Source: an uncultured bacterium (GTDB taxonomy: Bacteria > Bacteroidota > Bacteroidia > Chitinophagales > Chitinophagaceae). Taken from it: DNA of 64,000 nucleotides. Location: positions 87,190-151,189 of the forward strand of contig CAIXLY010000007.1 of the NCBI GenBank assembly GCA_903920455.1, in the 5' to 3' direction. Shown here one piece after another: positions 52,198 to 64,000 of this stretch; position 1 is the stretch's first letter, and each line of letters begins with the position of its first letter. A program made the translations under genes and the position numbers. The notes beneath the pieces are model-generated. The model was not told where the DNA came from, made no database searches, and saw only the letters and a list, made by a program, of their open reading frames with translations.

Positions 52198-54048
52198 CTA
52201 TTTATCCAGCCTTTTGATCAACTCTTGAATAGAAATGGTGATGATTCTACCAAGGGGCTTACCCTCGCGGTATGTAATCACTCGGAAAGTATCAGCATCT
52301 TTGGGAACACTTAACTTTTCACCCTTCTTATATTTTGGAGTATGATGATCAGGATATACATTCTCAAAAGAATAGTAAATATCCAAGCCCTCAAGTTCTG
52401 TATCTACCTGAATGAGTAAATTGTCTTGAGATCCTTTGATTGGTGTTACGATAGCATCGTAGAAACTACTTGCATAATTGATGTCATACTTAGCCAAACG
52501 CTTTAAGTGAGCTTCTGTTCGCCCAACAAATTGATTCCAGTTTTTATTTGATTTTTCAGACCAAAGAACCTCAGACAAAGCAAAAGAACGAGGCCACAAC
52601 ATGTACTCAGCATGACGGAATGTTGGCACACTTTCAGTCCACAAATTACCCTGCCCACCAAGAATATAAGTTTCGTCAACACCATCAGGAAGAGGCTCAA
52701 AATCAAATATAGTTTTAAAACGAAGCATGCTATATGTTGGAGGCTCAATTGAAGGATCCCCCTGGTAAAGATCCAGGTAGGCATAATCAGTTGGACTCAT
52801 CACTACATGATGATTTTGTTTGGCCGCAGCAATACCACCGCCCATTCCGCGCCAACTCATGACCGATGCCTTAGGGGCCAACCCACCTTCCAGAATCTCA
52901 TCCCAGCCCATGAGTTTTTTACCCTTCTGCTCAAGCATTTTCTCTAGGCGTTTGATAAAATAACTCTGGAGTTCATTGGTGTTTTTCAGGCCATTTTCCT
53001 TCATTCGTTGTTGACAATCCTCACACTTTTCCCAAAATCCCTTGTAGCACTCATCACCACCAATATGGATATATTCAAAAGGAAATACTTCGGCCACTTC
53101 TGTAAACACTTTATCCAGGAATTCAAAAGTAGACTCTTTACCTGCGCATAGGGAATTGTCATCTATCCCATAAAATTTACAGCCTGGATTAACTTTGTAG
53201 TTGAGTTTTGTAGATGAGAGAAAAGGATATGCAGCGATTGCAGCGAGACTATGACCAGGAACATCTATTTCTGGCAATACATCAACAAATCTGGCTGAAG
53301 CATAAGCAATCAACTCTTTAAGCTCTTGTTGTGTATAGAAGCCCCCATAGGTAGCTGCTTCACCTTCCTGCGGACAATCCCTATCCCACCACAACCCAGT
53401 GCGGGGCACACGCCAAGCAGCTACTGATGTTAGCTCAGGAAGTTTGTTGATTTGCATTCTCCATCCCTGATCATCGGTTAGGTGCAGGTGAAGAATATTG
53501 AACTTATAGATGACCATTTCATCGATCATGCGCTTAACCTGATCCATGGTAAAAAAATGCCTGCTTACGTCCAGCATCAATCCACGCCAAGGGAAACGAG
53601 GTTCATCTTTGATAGACACTGCAGGAATACTCAACTCCCCTTCTATCGGAATCATTTGCAACAAACTCTGAACACCATAAAAAAGACCTTGGGGCGTTAA
53701 CGCTTTTACCACGACTGAATTGCTGGACACATCCAACAGATATCCCTCTTTTTTAGTAGCTGCATTTGGATCGATGATAAGATTAATAGCCCTGGATTTA
53801 ACAGCAGTTCCGGATTTTGAAACCACTGCTGGCTGAGAATTAGTTGCAGATTTGATCATGTCTGATGTATAGGCTGCCAAAAATTTCAGTTGTTCATCAT
53901 TAAACAGAATGACAGTTTTTTCATTGATAACAAACCGTCCACTTTTCAGTGCAATCTCCTTGGGCTGAGGAATGATATTTATTTGTTGAGCCTGGGCAGA
54001 AAATGAAAAACAGCATAACAAAAATAAAGTGCGAATTATAATTTGCAT
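52198..54048 (-). CDS. Beta-N-acetylhexosaminidase (GH20)
   Basis: RGLMLDVSRHFFTMDQVKRMIDEM, LHLHLTDDQGWRMQI, PEIDVPGHSLAAIAAYP, YIHIGGDECYKGFWEKC. Confidence 0.95.
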   Translation of the reverse strand: MQIIIRTLFLLCCFSFSAQAQQINIIPQPKEIALKSGRFVINEKTVILFNDEQLKFLAAYTSDMIKSATNSQPAVVSKSGTAVKSRAINLIIDPNAATKKEGYLLDVSSNSVVVKALTPQGLFYGVQSLLQMIPIEGELSIPAVSIKDEPRFPWRGLMLDVSRHFFTMDQVKRMIDEMVIYKFNILHLHLTDDQGWRMQINKLPELTSVAAWRVPRTGLWWDRDCPQEGEAATYGGFYTQQELKELIAYASARFVDVLPEIDVPGHSLAAIAAYPFLSSTKLNYKVNPGCKFYGIDDNSLCAGKESTFEFLDKVFTEVAEVFPFEYIHIGGDECYKGFWEKCEDCQQRMKENGLKNTNELQSYFIKRLEKMLEQKGKKLMGWDEILEGGLAPKASVMSWRGMGGGIAAAKQNHHVVMSPTDYAYLDLYQGDPSIEPPTYSMLRFKTIFDFEPLPDGVDETYILGGQGNLWTESVPTFRHAEYMLWPRSFALSEVLWSEKSNKNWNQFVGRTEAHLKRLAKYDINYASSFYDAIVTPIKGSQDNLLIQVDTELEGLDIYYSFENVYPDHHTPKYKKGEKLSVPKDADTFRVITYREGKPLGRIITISIQELIKRLDK

Positions 54049-54093
54049 GGATAGTTGATTTTTAGAGGGCAGAAATTACACCATTATCTTGAG

Positions 54094-55719
54094 CTATTTC
54101 AGCTTGGTGGATAATTTGGTAATGACATCACTTTTAATCAACAGTTTACGGTCTGCATAAACCCTTAATCCCTTTCCTCGGTGATATTTATCCCCGTTTT
54201 TGTCCCACAACACGGTAAGATCCACCCCCTTATAAAAGATATGCTCTAAACAGAACCAATCCCAGTTGGACGGCACCAATGGATTGATCGTTAGGGTATC
54301 ATCCAAAGAAGGTCGGAGGCCTATGAGGCCGGTAATGACATTGTCGTTATATGTGGAGTGATTGTAATAAATACCACGTTCCTTAAACCCATGGTTATGG
54401 CCTTGAACTTCCATGCGGGTTCTGGCAAGCCAATCTCCATTAAATGGATTGAGGTTCTCATCGATCCACAAATCATTAGTCACAATTGTATCTGCATCAG
54501 GAGGTATCTGTCTAAAGCGATGTGATTTGGTATAGTTCTTAAAAGTCTGAAAAAAATCTTCTTTCGATACCACATCTTGATCATAGTCATTTAATACATT
54601 GGCCAACGCAGTAAGTGTTTCAGAAGTTGCAAAAGGCCAACTTGGTCCGTTCCATTGGCATTCATGTCCTTCATAACTCACTTTAAAGCCAGGATGTCTC
54701 TGTTCTGCAGTAGTTGGGCCAAAAGGCGCATAAAAACCTTCGGGATCCATGAGCTGTTTCCATGCTTTTTCATAACCTTGGTTTTTCGGTACAAGATTCA
54801 CGTACCAAGGAACAAATCCCAATAATTCTCTTGCAGAAGAAAGGGTATCAGCTGCTTTATCGTTTGGTAATTCAGACCGGGGTATCACTTTAAAAAAGTC
54901 TGCGCGCTTGTCCCACAACTTATCCAACACCAGGCTCTTCGTTTTCTCTGCCTCGGATAAATACTGTGTCTGTATATCCTTCAACCCATTTAATCCAGCT
55001 ATATACGATATTGCCCTTGCATCGGCATACATGTAGCTGTTGATTGTTGGTCTCTTTCCGGTGCCCCCAATGGCAACTTCCATTCCATCCTGTCCATCAT
55101 ATTGCCAAAACAAACCGTCTGGATCTTGTCGGCGATTTTGCCATTCCTTATAGTTTCCAATAAGATCTGGAAGAACATCTGATAAGAGAGCAGCATCAGG
55201 ATGCACCATATGATAATTCAAAAAACTTTCTGCAATCCAAAAACTATAGACATAGGGATTGCCTCCTTTCCTAAGCCAAAAAAGACCATAGTCGCGTATT
55301 ATTTTAGGATCTCGCAACCACCTGCCTTCCCTGAAATGATGCCCCGCTGGGCAGGAGATGCTATTGTATTTTCCAGCCCAAGAAACAGCAGGCATGAATT
55401 CTGTGACTACATACCCGTCAGCAGTTTCTTTGACATGCTTTCGGAATGTCCACCACCTGTAGTAATAAACTTCCTCAATTTCTTTATCCGGACAACTGAG
55501 AAAAGGAATATTTTTTGCAAGAAAATTCCAGCTTAGCTCATTGGGTATCATCTTGGTTTCCGGAATGACATCCACATGCAGATTCAATGTATCTTGATTA
55601 TTAAATTGATCAATATATCGCTTATACTCTTGTTGATCAAGTACCTGGCGGGTTGGGTACTTGCAGCTTAACAAACAAATAAGCAGGAGTAGTGTCGGGT
55701 TAACTTTCATACAAATCAT
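54094..55719 (-). CDS. MGH1-like / six-hairpin glycoside hydrolase
   Basis: DGQDGMEVAIGGTGKRPTINSYMYADARAIS, ECQWNGPSWPFATSETLTALANVL, NHSTYNDNVITGLIGLRP; lipobox LLSC. Confidence 0.8.
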   Translation of the reverse strand: MICMKVNPTLLLLICLLSCKYPTRQVLDQQEYKRYIDQFNNQDTLNLHVDVIPETKMIPNELSWNFLAKNIPFLSCPDKEIEEVYYYRWWTFRKHVKETADGYVVTEFMPAVSWAGKYNSISCPAGHHFREGRWLRDPKIIRDYGLFWLRKGGNPYVYSFWIAESFLNYHMVHPDAALLSDVLPDLIGNYKEWQNRRQDPDGLFWQYDGQDGMEVAIGGTGKRPTINSYMYADARAISYIAGLNGLKDIQTQYLSEAEKTKSLVLDKLWDKRADFFKVIPRSELPNDKAADTLSSARELLGFVPWYVNLVPKNQGYEKAWKQLMDPEGFYAPFGPTTAEQRHPGFKVSYEGHECQWNGPSWPFATSETLTALANVLNDYDQDVVSKEDFFQTFKNYTKSHRFRQIPPDADTIVTNDLWIDENLNPFNGDWLARTRMEVQGHNHGFKERGIYYNHSTYNDNVITGLIGLRPSLDDTLTINPLVPSNWDWFCLEHIFYKGVDLTVLWDKNGDKYHRGKGLRVYADRKLLIKSDVITKLSTKLK

Positions 55720-55794
55720 TAATAAACATAAACACCAACAGCGAGTTCAAGATTGATTCTTTAGGTCTGCTGGGATGACGGGTCGGTTAAAGAT

Positions 55795-55812
55795 ACTAAA
55801 ATGACTAAAATG
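55795..55812. repeat. Tandem direct 9-mer ACTAAAATG x2 in the divergent intergenic region
   Basis: actaaaatg at 55795-55803 and 55804-55812, midway between the divergent operons. Confidence 0.6.
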
Positions 55813-55904
55813 CTATACTTAAAACATCAAGATCAGCGGGCAGGTCTTTCAGTCAAGCATTTCACTGTTTCTCGGAATAGAAATATGCGTTCATTTAGTT
55901 TCAA

Positions 55905-55912
55905 TAGATTTG
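55905..55912 (+). promoter_or_regulatory. Bacteroidota -7 element (TAnnTTTG) upstream of the plus-strand glycosidase/sulfatase operon
   Basis: TAGATTTG 26 nt before the track start at 55938; no clear -33. Confidence 0.35.
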
Positions 55913-55937
55913 TATAGCCCGAAAGCATTCGAATAAC

Positions 55938-57017
55938 ATGCCAAACAGAATGATACAATCAACTATGGCCAAACAACTTTTTATCGCCTTATTAAGCAGC
56001 ATCTTTCTTTTTTCTTGTGCGAGCACAAAAAATACATCATCCGTAGTGACGGAAAAAGAGATGCAATCGGTATATGAAAAAGTAAAAACCCCATACAAAC
56101 AAGGTATTGTATTTCAACATCCAGACTCCTCCAAGTTGATTGACAGTCCATCTATATTTCGATGGAAAAGAAAATGGTGGATGACCTACATCATTTTTGA
56201 TGGAAGGGGCTATGAGACTTGGATTGCAGAGAGTAACAACTTAATGGAATGGAAATCGAAAGGTAGAATAATGTCATTCACTGATACGGGATGGGATGCA
56301 AATCAAAAAGCGGGATACATGGCACTGTTGGACATTAAATGGGGAGGCTCCTACAAACCCTCTGCACATGAAGGCAAATATTGGATGTCATATCTTGGCG
56401 GCTCAGTTAAGGGATATGAAGCAGGCCAACTGGGCGTTGGTCTAGCAAGAACAATCAATCCTATTGAAACAAAAGAATGGGAGCGTTTACCGCGGCCAAT
56501 ACTTGCGGCACATGACAAAGATGCAAGATGGTTTGAGAACAGCACCATCTACAAAAGCTATATTATCAAAGATAAAAAAAGACATACCGGCAAACCCTTT
56601 GTGATGTTTTATAATGCGGCAGGCGATACTGCTACTTATGAAAGCATCGGGATGGCTGTGTCCGACAACATGGTTGATTGGAAACGATATGGCAGCAATC
56701 CTGTAATCAGTCGATTTAAAAAAGGCACCATTTGTGGAGATGCCCAACTTGCTAAAGTTGGCAAACTCTATGTGATGTTTTACTTTGGCGCATTCTGGAA
56801 TGGCGATGCTCATGCATATGATCGATTTGCCTGCTCTTATGACTTGACCAATTGGACCGATTGGAAAGGAGAAGACCTCATCAAACCATCGGAATCCTAT
56901 GACAACACATTCGCGCACAAACCTTTTGTAATCAACTGGAAAGGAAAGGTGTACCACTTTTACAACGCAGTTGGTGAAAACGGAAGGGTAATCGCACTAG
57001 CAACATCAACTCCATAG
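55938..57017 (+). CDS. Five-bladed beta-propeller glycosidase lipoprotein (GH43/GH117-like fold)
   Basis: LFSCAS lipobox, HPDSSKLIDSPSIFRWKRKWWMTYIIFDGRGYETWIAESNNLMEW, AVSDNMVDWKRYGSNPV. ATG at 55965 (MAKQLF) is an alternative start. Confidence 0.8.
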   Translation: MPNRMIQSTMAKQLFIALLSSIFLFSCASTKNTSSVVTEKEMQSVYEKVKTPYKQGIVFQHPDSSKLIDSPSIFRWKRKWWMTYIIFDGRGYETWIAESNNLMEWKSKGRIMSFTDTGWDANQKAGYMALLDIKWGGSYKPSAHEGKYWMSYLGGSVKGYEAGQLGVGLARTINPIETKEWERLPRPILAAHDKDARWFENSTIYKSYIIKDKKRHTGKPFVMFYNAAGDTATYESIGMAVSDNMVDWKRYGSNPVISRFKKGTICGDAQLAKVGKLYVMFYFGAFWNGDAHAYDRFACSYDLTNWTDWKGEDLIKPSESYDNTFAHKPFVINWKGKVYHFYNAVGENGRVIALATSTP

Positions 57018-57055
57018 AATAACATTAATGCTGGTAGTATCATTTAAATTGTAGC

Positions 57056-58549
57056 ATGAACATCGCCAACCATATCCTTTGCTTGATATTAATCTGTAGC
57101 CACTCAATTGCAACCAAAGCGCAGCAGGCTAAGCCAAACATCATTTACATATTGGCAGACGACTTGGGTTATGGCGATGTGAGCTGCATGAATGAACAAT
57201 CAAAAATTAAAACGACCCATATTGATGCGCTGGCAAAAGCAGGAATGCGGTTTACCGATGCACACAGCAATTCTTCTGTATGTACCCCCACAAGATATGG
57301 AATCATGACAGGCAGATACGCTTGGAGAAGCAAGTTGAGCAATGGTGTTACCTGGAGTTACGACAGCTCGTTAATTGAGGGTGGCAGAAAGACTGTTGCA
57401 ACGATGCTCAAGCAACAGGGCTATGCTACAGCATGCATCGGTAAATGGCATTTGGGATTGGATTGGGGCAAAGACAATTCAGGCAATATCGATTTATTTA
57501 AACCCATTAAAAGAGGCCCAACCACTATGGGCTTTGATTACTTCTTCGGCATTACTGCCTCTTTAGATATCCCCCCATATGTATACATCCGTAACGACAG
57601 AATTACAGCGAGTTTAATTGACACGATAGAAGCAGCTGGTGGGAAAAGCTTCTGGCGTAAGGGGCCAATTGGCAATGACTTTAAACATGAGGAAGTAATG
57701 CCCAAATGTATTGAAGCTTCAATTGAGTTCATAGAAGAACAAGCAAAAAAAGAAAAGCCATTTTTCTTATACCTACCCCTTCCTGCACCACACACGCCCA
57801 TTTTGCCAACAGCAGCCTACAAAGGAAAAACTGGCACAAATGATTATGGAGATTTTGTATTGATGATGGATGATATGGTTGAAAAAGTTATTGATGCAGT
57901 AAAAAAAGCAGGAATCGAAGAGAATACGATGATTGTATTTACGAGCGATAATGGATGCTCACCGTCGGCTAATTTTAAAGAACTTGAACAAGCTGGGCAT
58001 TCTCCGAGCTATAAGTACAGAGGAGCAAAAGCCGACATCTACGAAGGTGGGCACCGGATTCCATTTATTGTCAAGTGGCCAAATCAAGTAAGGTCAAATA
58101 GTGTATCAGACAAAACCATATCACTCACAGATTTTTTTGCGACAATAACTGATCTCATGGATCAAGATATAGACGACAATACAGGTGAGGACAGCTACAG
58201 CATATTGCCATTGCTAACAGGAGATAAAAAAATGTATAAAAGAAACGATGTTGTCCATCATTCCATTGATGGAAGCTTTGCCATCAGAAAAGGAAAATGG
58301 AAGTTGGAATTCTGTTCCGGATCTGGAGGTTGGAGTTATCCTACTCCGGAGGAAACAGAATCCCATACACTTCCACCTGTTCAGTTATACAATATGAAAT
58401 CAGATATCAGCGAACAGCATAACAGATCAACTTCTCGCCCAATGGTTGTCAAAAAACTAACAACGCTTATGCAGCAGCAAATTGACAATGGTAGAAGCAA
58501 TCCAGGCAAGCATCAACAAAATGCCCTACCCATAAAGCTTCTGAGATAA
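57056..58549 (+). CDS. Exported S1-type sulfatase (formylglycine-dependent, Cys type)
   Basis: PNIIYILADDLGYGDVSC, active-site motif SVCTPTRYGIMTGRYAWR, GKWHLGLD, FTSDNGCSP. Confidence 0.94.
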   Translation: MNIANHILCLILICSHSIATKAQQAKPNIIYILADDLGYGDVSCMNEQSKIKTTHIDALAKAGMRFTDAHSNSSVCTPTRYGIMTGRYAWRSKLSNGVTWSYDSSLIEGGRKTVATMLKQQGYATACIGKWHLGLDWGKDNSGNIDLFKPIKRGPTTMGFDYFFGITASLDIPPYVYIRNDRITASLIDTIEAAGGKSFWRKGPIGNDFKHEEVMPKCIEASIEFIEEQAKKEKPFFLYLPLPAPHTPILPTAAYKGKTGTNDYGDFVLMMDDMVEKVIDAVKKAGIEENTMIVFTSDNGCSPSANFKELEQAGHSPSYKYRGAKADIYEGGHRIPFIVKWPNQVRSNSVSDKTISLTDFFATITDLMDQDIDDNTGEDSYSILPLLTGDKKMYKRNDVVHHSIDGSFAIRKGKWKLEFCSGSGGWSYPTPEETESHTLPPVQLYNMKSDISEQHNRSTSRPMVVKKLTTLMQQQIDNGRSNPGKHQQNALPIKLLR

Positions 58550-59779: not shown

Positions 59780-60277
59780 ATGAAAAGAAATTTCATTACA
59801 ACCACTATTATTTTGTGCCTTTTGTATACTGGAACTTATGCACAGGAAAAAGACACGGTTGTTGCACTCCCAGAAATCCGTGTAAGCTCTCCAACAGTCA
59901 TTACAGACAAAGTGGCAAAATCTTTTCTCAAAGCATTTCCAGGAGCAGAAAGCTTGAGGTGGTACAAGTATGACAAGGACTATTTGGCCAAGTTCATCTT
60001 GAATGATATGAACCACAACGCGCTGTTCAGACAAAATGGATACATCAAATACGATATTAGCTATGGCTATGAAAAACATCTTCCAGATGAAATCAAAACA
60101 CTTCTAAAAAAAGCGTACGACAACTATGATATCTTTAGGGCAATCAATGTGCAATCTGAAGGAAGAGATGTTTGGATAGTCAAGCTGGAAGGAATGAAGA
60201 AATATGCTACAGTGAGGATTGAGGAGGGGGAAATTGACGAATTTGAGCGATACGACAAAACAGCAGCCTCGAACTAA
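59780..60277 (+). CDS. Exported PepSY-like hypothetical protein
   Basis: Signal peptide; VAKSFLKAFPGAESLRWYKYDKDYLAKFILNDMNHNALFRQNGYIKYD. Confidence 0.65.
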   Translation: MKRNFITTTIILCLLYTGTYAQEKDTVVALPEIRVSSPTVITDKVAKSFLKAFPGAESLRWYKYDKDYLAKFILNDMNHNALFRQNGYIKYDISYGYEKHLPDEIKTLLKKAYDNYDIFRAINVQSEGRDVWIVKLEGMKKYATVRIEEGEIDEFERYDKTAASN

Positions 60278-60409
60278 GGGCCATCTCAAAGAAACAATAC
60301 CCCATCAATTAATGCATTGTACATAAAACGCTCAGCAAATTGAGCTTTAAGGGCATTTCTTCATAAATTTGAGCGTCTTGCATCGATTCAAGACAATCAA
60401 TAACAAAGG

Positions 60410-61744
60410 ATGCCCAACAAAGAAGAGATACCAACAGAAGAGAAGGGACTAAAAAGAACACTAACGCCAATCATGCTTTGGGGATTAGGGGTGGGATATG
60501 TTATCTCAGGAATGTATTTCGGATGGAACCTCGGACTTGAGAAGGGAGGAACGTTAGGGCTTGCCGTGGCAACAATTTTCATTGTGGTCATGTATGTCAC
60601 CTTCACCTTCAGCTACAGTGAGCTCGCTTGTGCCATACCTAAAGCAGGGGGTGGATTTGACTATGCCAGCAGGGCACTGGGGAAAAACTGGGGCTTTGTT
60701 GCGGGAATGGCCCAAAGCATAGAATTTATCTTTGCCCCTCCAGCCATCGCATTTGCTATTGGCGCCTATTTCAATTTATTCTTTCCGCAAATTCCAATTT
60801 TAAATATTGCCGTGTTTAGCTATATCGTCTTTACCGCACTTAATCTTTATGGAGTAAAAGCAGCTGCGATTTTTGAGTTGATAATTACCATCTTGGCGGT
60901 AGGCGAACTGATTTTATTTGCGGGAATAACCTTTCCACATGTTGAGATAAACAACCTAAAACAAAATGCATTACCACATGGCTGGTCAGGCATGTTTGCA
61001 GCAATCCCTTTTGCAATCTGGTTCTTTCTGGGGATAGAAGGAGTAGCCAATGTTGCAGAGGAAACAATTAAACCAAAACGAACGATACTTATTGGTTTTG
61101 GTTCAGCAATCGCAACCCTTGTAGTACTTTGCTTGATTACCTTCATCAGCTCGACTGGGGTAGCCGGATGGGAAGCCATCGTATACAAGGCCGACGGAAC
61201 TGCATCCGACTCCCCACTACCACTGGCATTGGCAAAGATTGTTGGCAATAATAATGCGCTCTATCACCTGCTTATTGCAATTGGATTATTTGGACTCATT
61301 GCCTCCTTCCACGGACTTATTCTTGCCGCTGGCAGATCCACCTTTGAGTTTGGGCGCGTTAGGTTTGCACCGCCGATCCTTGGAAAAATTCATAAGAAAT
61401 ATCAAACACCTGCAATTGCATTGCTGGTAAACATGTCGATAGGTATTGGCGCATTGTTAACCGGCAAAACCGCTGAGATCATTACCATATCAGTGTTTGG
61501 CGCACTTACACTATACATCATCTCGATGATCTCAGTAATCAGACTAAGGGCAATTGAGCCAAATTTAGAAAGGCCTTTTAAGGTTCCTTTTTATCCCATC
61601 TTCCCAATCGTTGCACTGACTATCGCTACCCTATCTTTTACAGCCATGTTGATCTACAACATGACACTGGGCATTGTTTTTATACTGTTAATAGTCATTT
61701 GCTTTTTAGCTTTCAAAATCATCAGACCAAGCTACCAGAATTAA
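60410..61744 (+). CDS. APC-family amino-acid/ethanolamine permease
   Basis: MLWGLGVGYVISGMYFGWNLGLEKGGTLGLAVATIFIVVMYVTFTFSYSELACAIPKAGGGFDYASRALG is strongly Eat-like. Confidence 0.82.
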   Translation: MPNKEEIPTEEKGLKRTLTPIMLWGLGVGYVISGMYFGWNLGLEKGGTLGLAVATIFIVVMYVTFTFSYSELACAIPKAGGGFDYASRALGKNWGFVAGMAQSIEFIFAPPAIAFAIGAYFNLFFPQIPILNIAVFSYIVFTALNLYGVKAAAIFELIITILAVGELILFAGITFPHVEINNLKQNALPHGWSGMFAAIPFAIWFFLGIEGVANVAEETIKPKRTILIGFGSAIATLVVLCLITFISSTGVAGWEAIVYKADGTASDSPLPLALAKIVGNNNALYHLLIAIGLFGLIASFHGLILAAGRSTFEFGRVRFAPPILGKIHKKYQTPAIALLVNMSIGIGALLTGKTAEIITISVFGALTLYIISMISVIRLRAIEPNLERPFKVPFYPIFPIVALTIATLSFTAMLIYNMTLGIVFILLIVICFLAFKIIRPSYQN

Positions 61745-61771
61745 AATACTTCTAGACCCTAATTCAACATC

Positions 61772-63130
61772 ATGAGCAAACAAGAAATTATCGAGTACGT
61801 AAAAAATCATCCTTCAGGAAGGGTCAAGCTGGCCTTTTCAGATATTGATGGAATCCTAAGGGGGAAGTATATTTCAACTGAAAAGTTCCTATCTGCAATA
61901 GAGAAAGGAACAAACTTTTGCGACGTGATTGTGGGATGGGATTCTGCTGATGTGTTATACGACAGATCGGAAGTTACAGGTTGGCATACTGGCTATCCAG
62001 ACAGCGCAGCAACAATTGACATCAATACCTTCAGGAAAATACCTTGGGAAAATGATATACCCTTCTTTTTGGGTGAGTTAAACGACAGTGACGGTAGCGC
62101 ATCTTCAGTATGTCCGAGGCAACTGCTAAAAAAAGCATTAGAGGAATCTACACAACAGGGCTATCGCCCTATGTTTGCTCAAGAATTTGAATGGTTCAAT
62201 TTTTCAGAAACTCCACAATCAGCAAATGAAAAGGGATTCAGAAATCTTACTCCCCTCACCCCCGGCATGTTTGGATATTCTATTTTGCGTTCAACACTAA
62301 ACAATCCATTCTTTGCAGATCTATTTGATCTCTTGAAAAAATTTAATGTGCCACTTGAGGGCCTGCATACTGAAACTGGTCCGGGTACCTACGAAGCCGC
62401 CATCTGCCACTCCGGGATATTAGAGGCAGGAGACCGGGCGCTGCTGTTTAAAACTGCGGTAAAAGAGATTGCCTATAAACACAATATCATGGCCACTTTT
62501 ATGGCCAAAATTAACGAGAATCTTCCTGGATGCGGAGGCCATGTGCACCAGAGCCTATGGGATATTGAAGAAAACAACAACCTGTTTTACAACAATCAAG
62601 ATCCACACAAGTTGAGCGATACTGCAAAGAGCTATATCGCTGGTCAACTGCACTGCCTCCCTTTCATTCTTCCAATGTTTGCGCCCACCATCAACAGTTA
62701 TAAAAGACTTGTAGAGGGTGCATGGGCACCTACCACACTCACCTGGGGTATTGATAACAGAACAGTGGCCCTGAGAATACTCAATGGCAGCGCGTCTTCT
62801 TGCAGGGTCGAGACCAGGGTGATAGGTGCAGACGTAAATCCTTATCTCGCAATGGCCGCATGTCTTGCTTCCGGTCTATATGGGATAAAAAATAAGTTGA
62901 CACTGGAACAACCTGCAACATTGGGAAATGGATACCAAGATTATTCAAACGGCAGTATCCCACATACCTTGATAGATGCAACCAACCAGATGAAATCATC
63001 CCCTATTGCAGCAGCCTTATTCGGAAAAACATTTGTTGATCATTTTGTTCAAACCCGCGAATGGGAATGGCGTCAGCATTTAAAAGCAGTAACTGACTGG
63101 GAGCATAAACGATATTTTGAGATTATTTAA
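61772..63130 (+). CDS. Glutamine synthetase family protein, probable gamma-glutamyl-amine ligase
   Basis: LPGCGGHVHQSLWD, PTINSYKRLVEGAWAPTTLTWGIDNRTVALRI, ETRVIGADVNPYLAMAA; genomic context of an amine permease. Confidence 0.85.
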   Translation: MSKQEIIEYVKNHPSGRVKLAFSDIDGILRGKYISTEKFLSAIEKGTNFCDVIVGWDSADVLYDRSEVTGWHTGYPDSAATIDINTFRKIPWENDIPFFLGELNDSDGSASSVCPRQLLKKALEESTQQGYRPMFAQEFEWFNFSETPQSANEKGFRNLTPLTPGMFGYSILRSTLNNPFFADLFDLLKKFNVPLEGLHTETGPGTYEAAICHSGILEAGDRALLFKTAVKEIAYKHNIMATFMAKINENLPGCGGHVHQSLWDIEENNNLFYNNQDPHKLSDTAKSYIAGQLHCLPFILPMFAPTINSYKRLVEGAWAPTTLTWGIDNRTVALRILNGSASSCRVETRVIGADVNPYLAMAACLASGLYGIKNKLTLEQPATLGNGYQDYSNGSIPHTLIDATNQMKSSPIAAALFGKTFVDHFVQTREWEWRQHLKAVTDWEHKRYFEII

Positions 63131-63145
63131 AAATAAGACTTAACC

Positions 63146-64000
63146 ATGTTTGATAAAATTTACCAATACAATTTTCCAACGACCATCAGATTTGGTGCAG
63201 GTGTAGTACATGAATTGGGAGACTACCTGGAGAATAACAAATTGAATAGCCCACTTATTGTTACAGATCCGGTGGTTGCAGAGCTTGGATTTTTTAAAGC
63301 AATTATAGCAGAACTTAAGAAACATCATATCGGCGTAGAGGTATTCTCTGACATCCACAAAAATCCGGTAAAATCTGATGTGTATAAGGGTACTGATGCC
63401 TACGATATCACAAAGCGCGATAGCGTCATTGGAATTGGCGGTGGTGCAGCACTTGACGTTGCACGTGCTATTGTTTTAAGGGTGAACCACAGAGAAGACC
63501 TATTCAAATACGATGATCTGATTGGTGGAGATGTGTATGTAACAAACGATGTTCCCCATTTCATCACCATACCAACAACAGCAGGAACTGGAAGTGAAGT
63601 CGGACGAAGCGCTATTATTGCAGATGATGAAACCCACCAAAAGAAAATATTGTTTTCGCCTAAGCTTTTGGCAAAAATAATTTTTGCAGACCCCATCCTC
63701 ACCATGGAACTCCCCCCTGCTGTAACCGCTGCTACAGGAATGGATGCCCTTACCCATAACCTTGAAGCATACATCGCAAAAATGGAACACCCCCTTTGCG
63801 AAGGGATTGCACTTGAGGGCATATCATTAATAGGAAATGCAATAGTGAAGGCAGTAAACAAGCCAGATATAGAATCAAGAAGTAAAATGCTGATTGCATC
63901 ACTCATGGGTGCAATAGCCTTTCAAAAAGGACTGGGCGTGGTTCATTCACTCGCACATCCACTCTCCTCTTTACTTGATACACACCACGGTCTGGCGAAC
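63146..64000 (+). CDS. Iron-containing alcohol dehydrogenase (incomplete, runs off window)
   Basis: Translated by hand: MFDKIYQYNFPTTIRFGAGVVHELGDYL..., GIGGGAALDVARAI, TIPTTAGTGSEVGRSAII, GMDALTHNLEAYI, LGVVHSLAHPLSSLLDTHHGLAN; absent from the track because there is no stop. Confidence 0.92.
   Translation, partial: MFDKIYQYNFPTTIRFGAGVVHELGDYLENNKLNSPLIVTDPVVAELGFFKAIIAELKKHHIGVEVFSDIHKNPVKSDVYKGTDAYDITKRDSVIGIGGGAALDVARAIVLRVNHREDLFKYDDLIGGDVYVTNDVPHFITIPTTAGTGSEVGRSAIIADDETHQKKILFSPKLLAKIIFADPILTMELPPAVTAATGMDALTHNLEAYIAKMEHPLCEGIALEGISLIGNAIVKAVNKPDIESRSKMLIASLMGAIAFQKGLGVVHSLAHPLSSLLDTHHGLAN

Follow-up and report, generated by a model that had tools for sequence, protein, structure and literature searches.

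We analysed a 64,000-nucleotide stretch of DNA from an uncultured Chitinophagaceae bacterium (G000:C7:87190-151189, here called the window), the last base of which, 64000, coincides with the end of contig C7. At this end three open reading frames (ORFs) follow one another on the + strand, separated by 27 and then 15 bases. The first (60410..61744) encodes a 444-residue Eat-type APC permease with a predicted role in ethanolamine uptake, the second (61772..63130) a 452-residue glutamine synthetase (GS)-like ligase that we predict to be a gamma-glutamylethanolamide synthetase, and the third (63146..64000) the N-terminal 285 residues of an Fe-dependent alcohol dehydrogenase (Fe-ADH), predicted to act on gamma-glutamylethanolamide and cut by the contig end. 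A preliminary description of this DNA had named the same three genes and their tight spacing on one strand, and both the ORFs and the family matches bear this out. We consider it likely that they form the 5' end of an operon of five genes, in the order Eat, GS-like ligase, Fe-ADH, C26 hydrolase and aldehyde dehydrogenase (ALDH), and that this operon serves the use of ethanolamine through gamma-glutamylation, without the cobalamin enzyme EutBC.

The ligase and its active site

The ligase matches PF00120 (Gln-synt_C) with 318 bits, but no NCBIfam ligase model reaches its curated cutoff, the scores being 234 bits against 429 for GlnA type I (TIGR00653), 212 against 650 for PuuA (NF045547) and 203 against 470 for type III. 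In an alignment with GlnA and PuuA of E. coli, the protein retains E129, E131, E212, E220, H269, R321, R339, E357 and R359; these include the metal residues E129, E131, E212, E220, H269 and E357, and the residues for glutamate and ATP are likewise kept. The ammonia-site glutamate is lost, with W318 in place of GS E327, and Y179 is changed to F, so that a GS-like catalytic core is combined with an altered ammonia site, as looked for in a gamma-glutamylation pathway. A comparable loss of E327 has been described for PauA7, which has W, and for GlnA4, which has F (PMC6529630).

Membership of PF00120 would also suit an ordinary glutamine synthetase that lies near a transporter by chance. We regard this as extremely improbable, since the GlnA score is far under its cutoff, E327 is lost, and the gene order is kept across dozens of Bacteroidota (see below). 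Furthermore, a separate Gln-synt_C match is found elsewhere in the window genome, in a 786-residue frame on contig C81; this is probably the true GS of the organism, and from its size we take it to be of type III.

In our trees, the window ligase falls in a Bacteroidota clade, termed GS_A, that is distinct both from the IpuC group and from ligases of Roseobacter operons with a tripartite ATP-independent periplasmic (TRAP) transporter. The sisters of GS_A are ligases from Photobacterium, Legionella, Burkholderia, Rhizobium and one Rhodobacteraceae strain, at 44-46% identity. Those of Photobacterium and Legionella sit in ligase - ALDH - Fe-ADH - amidotransferase (GATase) operons.

Gene order in relatives and past the contig end

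The Fe-ADH adjoining the ligase matches PF00465 and PF25137 (ADH_Fe_C), shows the metal-ligand motifs DALTHNLE, HSLAH and HHGLAN when read directly, and is 86% identical to the operon ADH of genome G017. It had been predicted that an ALDH and a PuuD-like gamma-glutamyl hydrolase should lie past position 64000. We see exactly this in the relatives with the closest ligases, where Eat, ligase and Fe-ADH are directly followed by a 230-260-residue protein of PF07722 (Peptidase_C26, the PuuD family) and then by an ALDH (PF00171). The window genome itself has a 178-residue C-terminal ALDH fragment, 73% identical to the G017 operon ALDH, at the end of contig C78, where it is convergent with a UxaC-like gene (uxaC) 1 base away; the same arrangement is seen in G017, G009 and G006. 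Because the genome's own ALDH fragment ends C78 in the uxaC synteny of the relatives, a gap of about 1.8 kb in the assembly, between C7 and C78, very probably splits the operon. The prediction thus held for both genes in relatives and for the ALDH in the window genome, whose hydrolase is considered further below.

The C26 gene is found in most relatives, with its ICRG cysteine and WHPE histidine motifs present. Its coupling to the ALDH gene is close: the two overlap as ATGA in G017, and in eight genomes they form one open frame with no stop, of about 690-720 residues in G002, G007, G010, L077, L078, L079 and L083 and with a shortened ALDH in L080. This fusion supports consecutive steps for the two enzymes. 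The loci that carry it are L077, L078, L079, L080, L083, L095 (which is G010), L024 and L034.

To place the operon more widely, related and named genomes were searched for the ligase. Matches were obtained in 22 of 41 related genomes, two of them weak, with G025 just 37% identical. Scanning named genomes with an alignment of 16 ligases then gave 80 loci, nearly all from Bacteroidota, which include Chitinophaga, Pedobacter, Aquirufa, Emticicia, Niabella, Parapedobacter, Olivibacter, Cyclobacterium, Mucilaginibacter and many metagenome-assembled genomes (MAGs). As these loci were selected by the ligase alone, their gene context is an independent result. The full Eat-GS-ADH-C26-ALDH set is present in 43 of the 61 loci with enough flank, which argues that the gene order is not due to chance; the others comprise 3 loci without a recognised adjacent Eat only, 3 without C26 only, and 12 without ADH. 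At the Emticicia-type loci L106, L133 and L141, the ligase is flanked by an ATP-grasp-like protein and by a GntP permease, with no ADH or ALDH, a context that suggests a different role. A complete Bacteroidota operon, with 72-73% ligase identity, is also present at L094, where the contig bears the title Beijerinckiaceae (Alphaproteobacteria); the binning or naming of this MAG is probably wrong.

Permease partners, substrate and alternatives

The window permease matches the AA_permease families PF13520 and PF00324, and its score of 434.6 bits against TIGR00908 ('ethanolamine permease') passes the curated cutoff of 381.75, from which ethanolamine transport is predicted. Permeases of IpuC-type clusters, in contrast, score 53, 47 or nothing against this model, and are 22-26% identical to the window permease. 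The difference points to ethanolamine as the substrate.

A second line of evidence comes from the enzymes that accompany the permease. The bypass of EutBC proposed in the preliminary description is supported by the lack of EutB in the window genome (no PF06751 match). In our sample of the window's genus, each permease-bearing genome carries a GS-like ligase or EutB; in G014 and G016, Eat directly precedes EutB and there is no GS-like ligase, with EutC confirmed directly after EutB in G016. In a sample of 199 genomes from across the order, 59 have an Eat permease. GS_A is found in 47 of these (adjacent in 34), EutB in 7 (adjacent in 6) and both in 3, while the remaining 8 all carry a ligase of a second clade, GS_B. 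All 59 Eat-bearing genomes in this sample therefore carry a GS-like ligase or EutB, often adjacent. The co-occurrence of Eat and GS_A gives a Fisher p of 1e-19, uncorrected for ancestry. A strict mutual exclusion of EutBC and the GS-like ligase, which holds in the window-genus sample, was rejected for the order on account of the three genomes with both.

GS_B was sought solely in the 8 Eat genomes that have neither GS_A nor EutB. It forms one clade (100/100 support) with the Roseobacter ethanolamine ligases and related ligases of Thermomicrobium and Arthrobacter. It clusters with Eat in 7 of the 8 genomes, the two being on different contigs in the eighth. In five of these clusters, the retrieved sequence shows a short-chain dehydrogenase (SDR) and an ALDH encoded on the same strand, and four of the five also have a GATase-like ORF, which was named by a model in L180 alone. 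The GS_B loci are L032 and L176-L182, with two small ORFs separating GS_B from the dehydrogenase in L032. Within the order, GS_B-linked permeases are 66-69% identical to the window permease and EutBC-linked ones 44-48%. EutBC is specific for ethanolamine. That one permease family feeds alternative first enzymes (GS_A, GS_B and EutBC) again argues for ethanolamine as the substrate.

We infer all catalytic steps of the pathway, and the identity of the substrate, from gene content and order, conservation, active-site residues, permease family and co-occurrence. Eat would import ethanolamine, which the GS-like ligase, using ATP, would join to the gamma-carboxyl of glutamate, giving gamma-glutamylethanolamide. 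The Fe-ADH would convert the alcohol group into an aldehyde that stays bound as a gamma-glutamyl amide, the ALDH would oxidise this to gamma-glutamylglycine, and the C26 hydrolase would split the latter into glycine and glutamate, with the glutamate recycled. Glutamylation would shield the amine and avoid a free amino-aldehyde.

The presence of an Fe-ADH, where a P450 or an amine oxidase could have been expected for other amines, suggests that the substrate has a hydroxyl from the outset: with a free alcohol, an ADH is required but a monooxygenase is not, whereas IpuC clusters carry P450s instead. This bears on a further explanation, in which the operon serves catabolism of an alkylamine or polyamine, in the manner of IpuC or PuuA, and the permease imports an amine without a hydroxyl. 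An IpuC-annotated ligase is indeed 39% identical to the window ligase, and the Puu pathway also has a C26 protein and an ALDH. The IpuC isopropylamine and PuuABCD putrescine pathways share gamma-glutamylated intermediates, a C26/GATase hydrolase and an ALDH with the operon described here, but they have a P450 or amine oxidase for the Fe-ADH, and other permeases. P450, amine oxidase (PuuB) and aminotransferase (PuuE) genes are all missing from the conserved operon, and the alcohol dehydrogenase would be without a job in such a pathway. The ligase is moreover far under the PuuA cutoff and in a clade separate from IpuC, and the low identity of the IpuC-cluster permeases also speaks against this explanation, which we find very unlikely.

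Harder to set aside is a pathway of the same logic for another primary amino alcohol, such as L-alaninol, serinol or 3-aminopropanol, giving alanine, serine or beta-alanine rather than glycine. The window ligase has a clade of its own, the Fe-ADH and ALDH could act on any gamma-glutamylated primary alcohol, and the sister-clade ligases of Rhizobium and Burkholderia have no adjoining Fe-ADH, which suggests a spread of substrates. However, the window permease passes the ethanolamine cutoff; of its homologues, close ones are linked to ethanolamine ligases of the Roseobacter clade and more distant ones to EutBC. Ethanolamine is also by far the commonest of these amino alcohols in nature. We consider a different amino alcohol unlikely.

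Several observations weigh against ethanolamine use by the complete operon. The window ligase does not group with the Roseobacter ethanolamine ligases (the ETAGA clade), and Streptomyces coelicolor GlnA4 and the Chromohalobacter salexigens ligase are not among the proteins placed in the trees; with GS_A distinct from the Roseobacter clade and GlnA4 unplaced, orthology cannot give the substrate, and we rejected it as a basis for assignment. No ADH accompanies the ligase in 12 of 61 loci, and 18 of the 65 ligase-bearing genomes have no Eat, so that other amines may also be substrates of this ligase family. The EutBC-linked permeases form a branch of their own, and co-occurrence tests of the kind used here ignore shared ancestry. 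In the assembly of the window genome, only weak general GATase matches were seen and the operon hydrolase was not found; this fits the gap of about 1.8 kb, in which the gene would lie, yet it is no proof that the gene is there. Some relatives also have no hydrolase (G008, G015 and G001; L093, L096 and L127).

Comparison with known systems and neighbouring features

The proposed chemistry is that of the ethanolamine operon of Phaeobacter sp. MED193 and Roseobacter (ETAGA, GAADDH, GETADH, GGAH, EtoXVW; PMC10132767), which likewise has a GS-like ligase, an ALDH, an ethanolamine transporter and a gamma-glutamylglycine hydrolase. The Phaeobacter counterpart of the Roseobacter-type operon is induced by phosphorylethanolamine (PMC10132767). 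Roseobacter plasmid operons also combine an Fe-ADH with GS and ALDH, as in the window operon. In contrast, the Phaeobacter/Roseobacter transporter is of the TRAP type where the window has Eat, and the hydrolase is of the N-formylglutamate-amidohydrolase type where Bacteroidota have C26. The ligase clades differ, and identities between the Roseobacter and Bacteroidota operons are 33-35% for the ligase, 36-38% for the ADH and 35% for the ALDH. At L159, on plasmid pAA03 of Aminobacter aminovorans, a Roseobacter-type ligase - ALDH - Fe-ADH operon adjoins the beta-hydroxyaspartate cycle genes bhcRABC, a neighbourhood consistent with glycine, glyoxylate or another C2 product.

In the S. coelicolor GlnA4 cluster (SCO1610-SCO1615), a GS-like ligase makes gamma-glutamylethanolamide in vitro, and a dehydrogenase, an ALDH and an amidohydrolase are predicted (PMC6529630). 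This cluster has a short-chain dehydrogenase for the Fe-ADH, and the permease is described as unlike Eat and as absent from S. coelicolor (PMC6529630). The four-step route has thus been published for S. coelicolor, with the ligase assayed and the later steps predicted, and for Phaeobacter, from proteomics (PMC6529630, PMC10132767). According to the papers that cite the work on C. salexigens, the same four steps have been proposed for ethanolamine glutamylation there, in another phylum and with a TRAP transporter (PMC6529630, PMC9397018, PMC10132767). PDB entry 5dm3 is probably Csal_0679 of this organism. Closer to the window, the GS_B - SDR - ALDH - GATase - Eat operon of the same order shares the permease family, a GS-like ligase, an alcohol dehydrogenase, an ALDH and an amidotransferase-type hydrolase, but has a Roseobacter-side ligase, a short-chain ADH, and other ALDH and hydrolase families.

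A literature search, mostly outside subscription journals, found no report linking ethanolamine glutamylation to Bacteroidetes or Bacteroidota, which is weak evidence of novelty. The pathway itself is already known; what is new is its occurrence in this phylum, a ligase clade other than that of the Roseobacter ethanolamine ligases, the choice of Eat and C26 as parts, and the hydrolase-dehydrogenase fusions. More tentatively, and with some doubt, we suggest that GS_A may have gained ethanolamine activity independently of the Roseobacter-type ligases, that one permease family may feed three interchangeable systems (GS_A with Fe-ADH, GS_B with SDR, and EutBC), and that some Chitinophagaceae may have fused hydrolase and ALDH into a bifunctional enzyme for the last two steps.

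Ethanolamine is a membrane-lipid headgroup and, released from phosphatidylethanolamine, a common source of nitrogen and carbon. If our reading is correct, many environmental Bacteroidota (Chitinophaga, Pedobacter, Aquirufa, Niabella, Parapedobacter and others) would need neither vitamin B12 nor a microcompartment to use it, by a route that runs through a ligase family labelled glutamine synthetase in databases. This would add a phylum to a pathway so far described in Proteobacteria and Actinobacteria, and would provide a testable annotation for the ligase, Fe-ADH, ALDH and C26 protein in cultured strains.

Upstream of the permease gene, 132 noncoding bases (60278..60409, + strand) separate the operon from the preceding ORF and are the probable site of its promoter, judged from the sequence. 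The ORF at 59780-60277 encodes a small predicted secreted protein of 165 residues with no Pfam match; three relatives (L022, L026 and L037) have homologues of it close to the operon. Further upstream, at 52198-58549, are genes for a GH20 hexosaminidase, an MGH1-like glycoside hydrolase, a weak GH130-like protein and a sulfatase, likely a glycan-degradation cluster.

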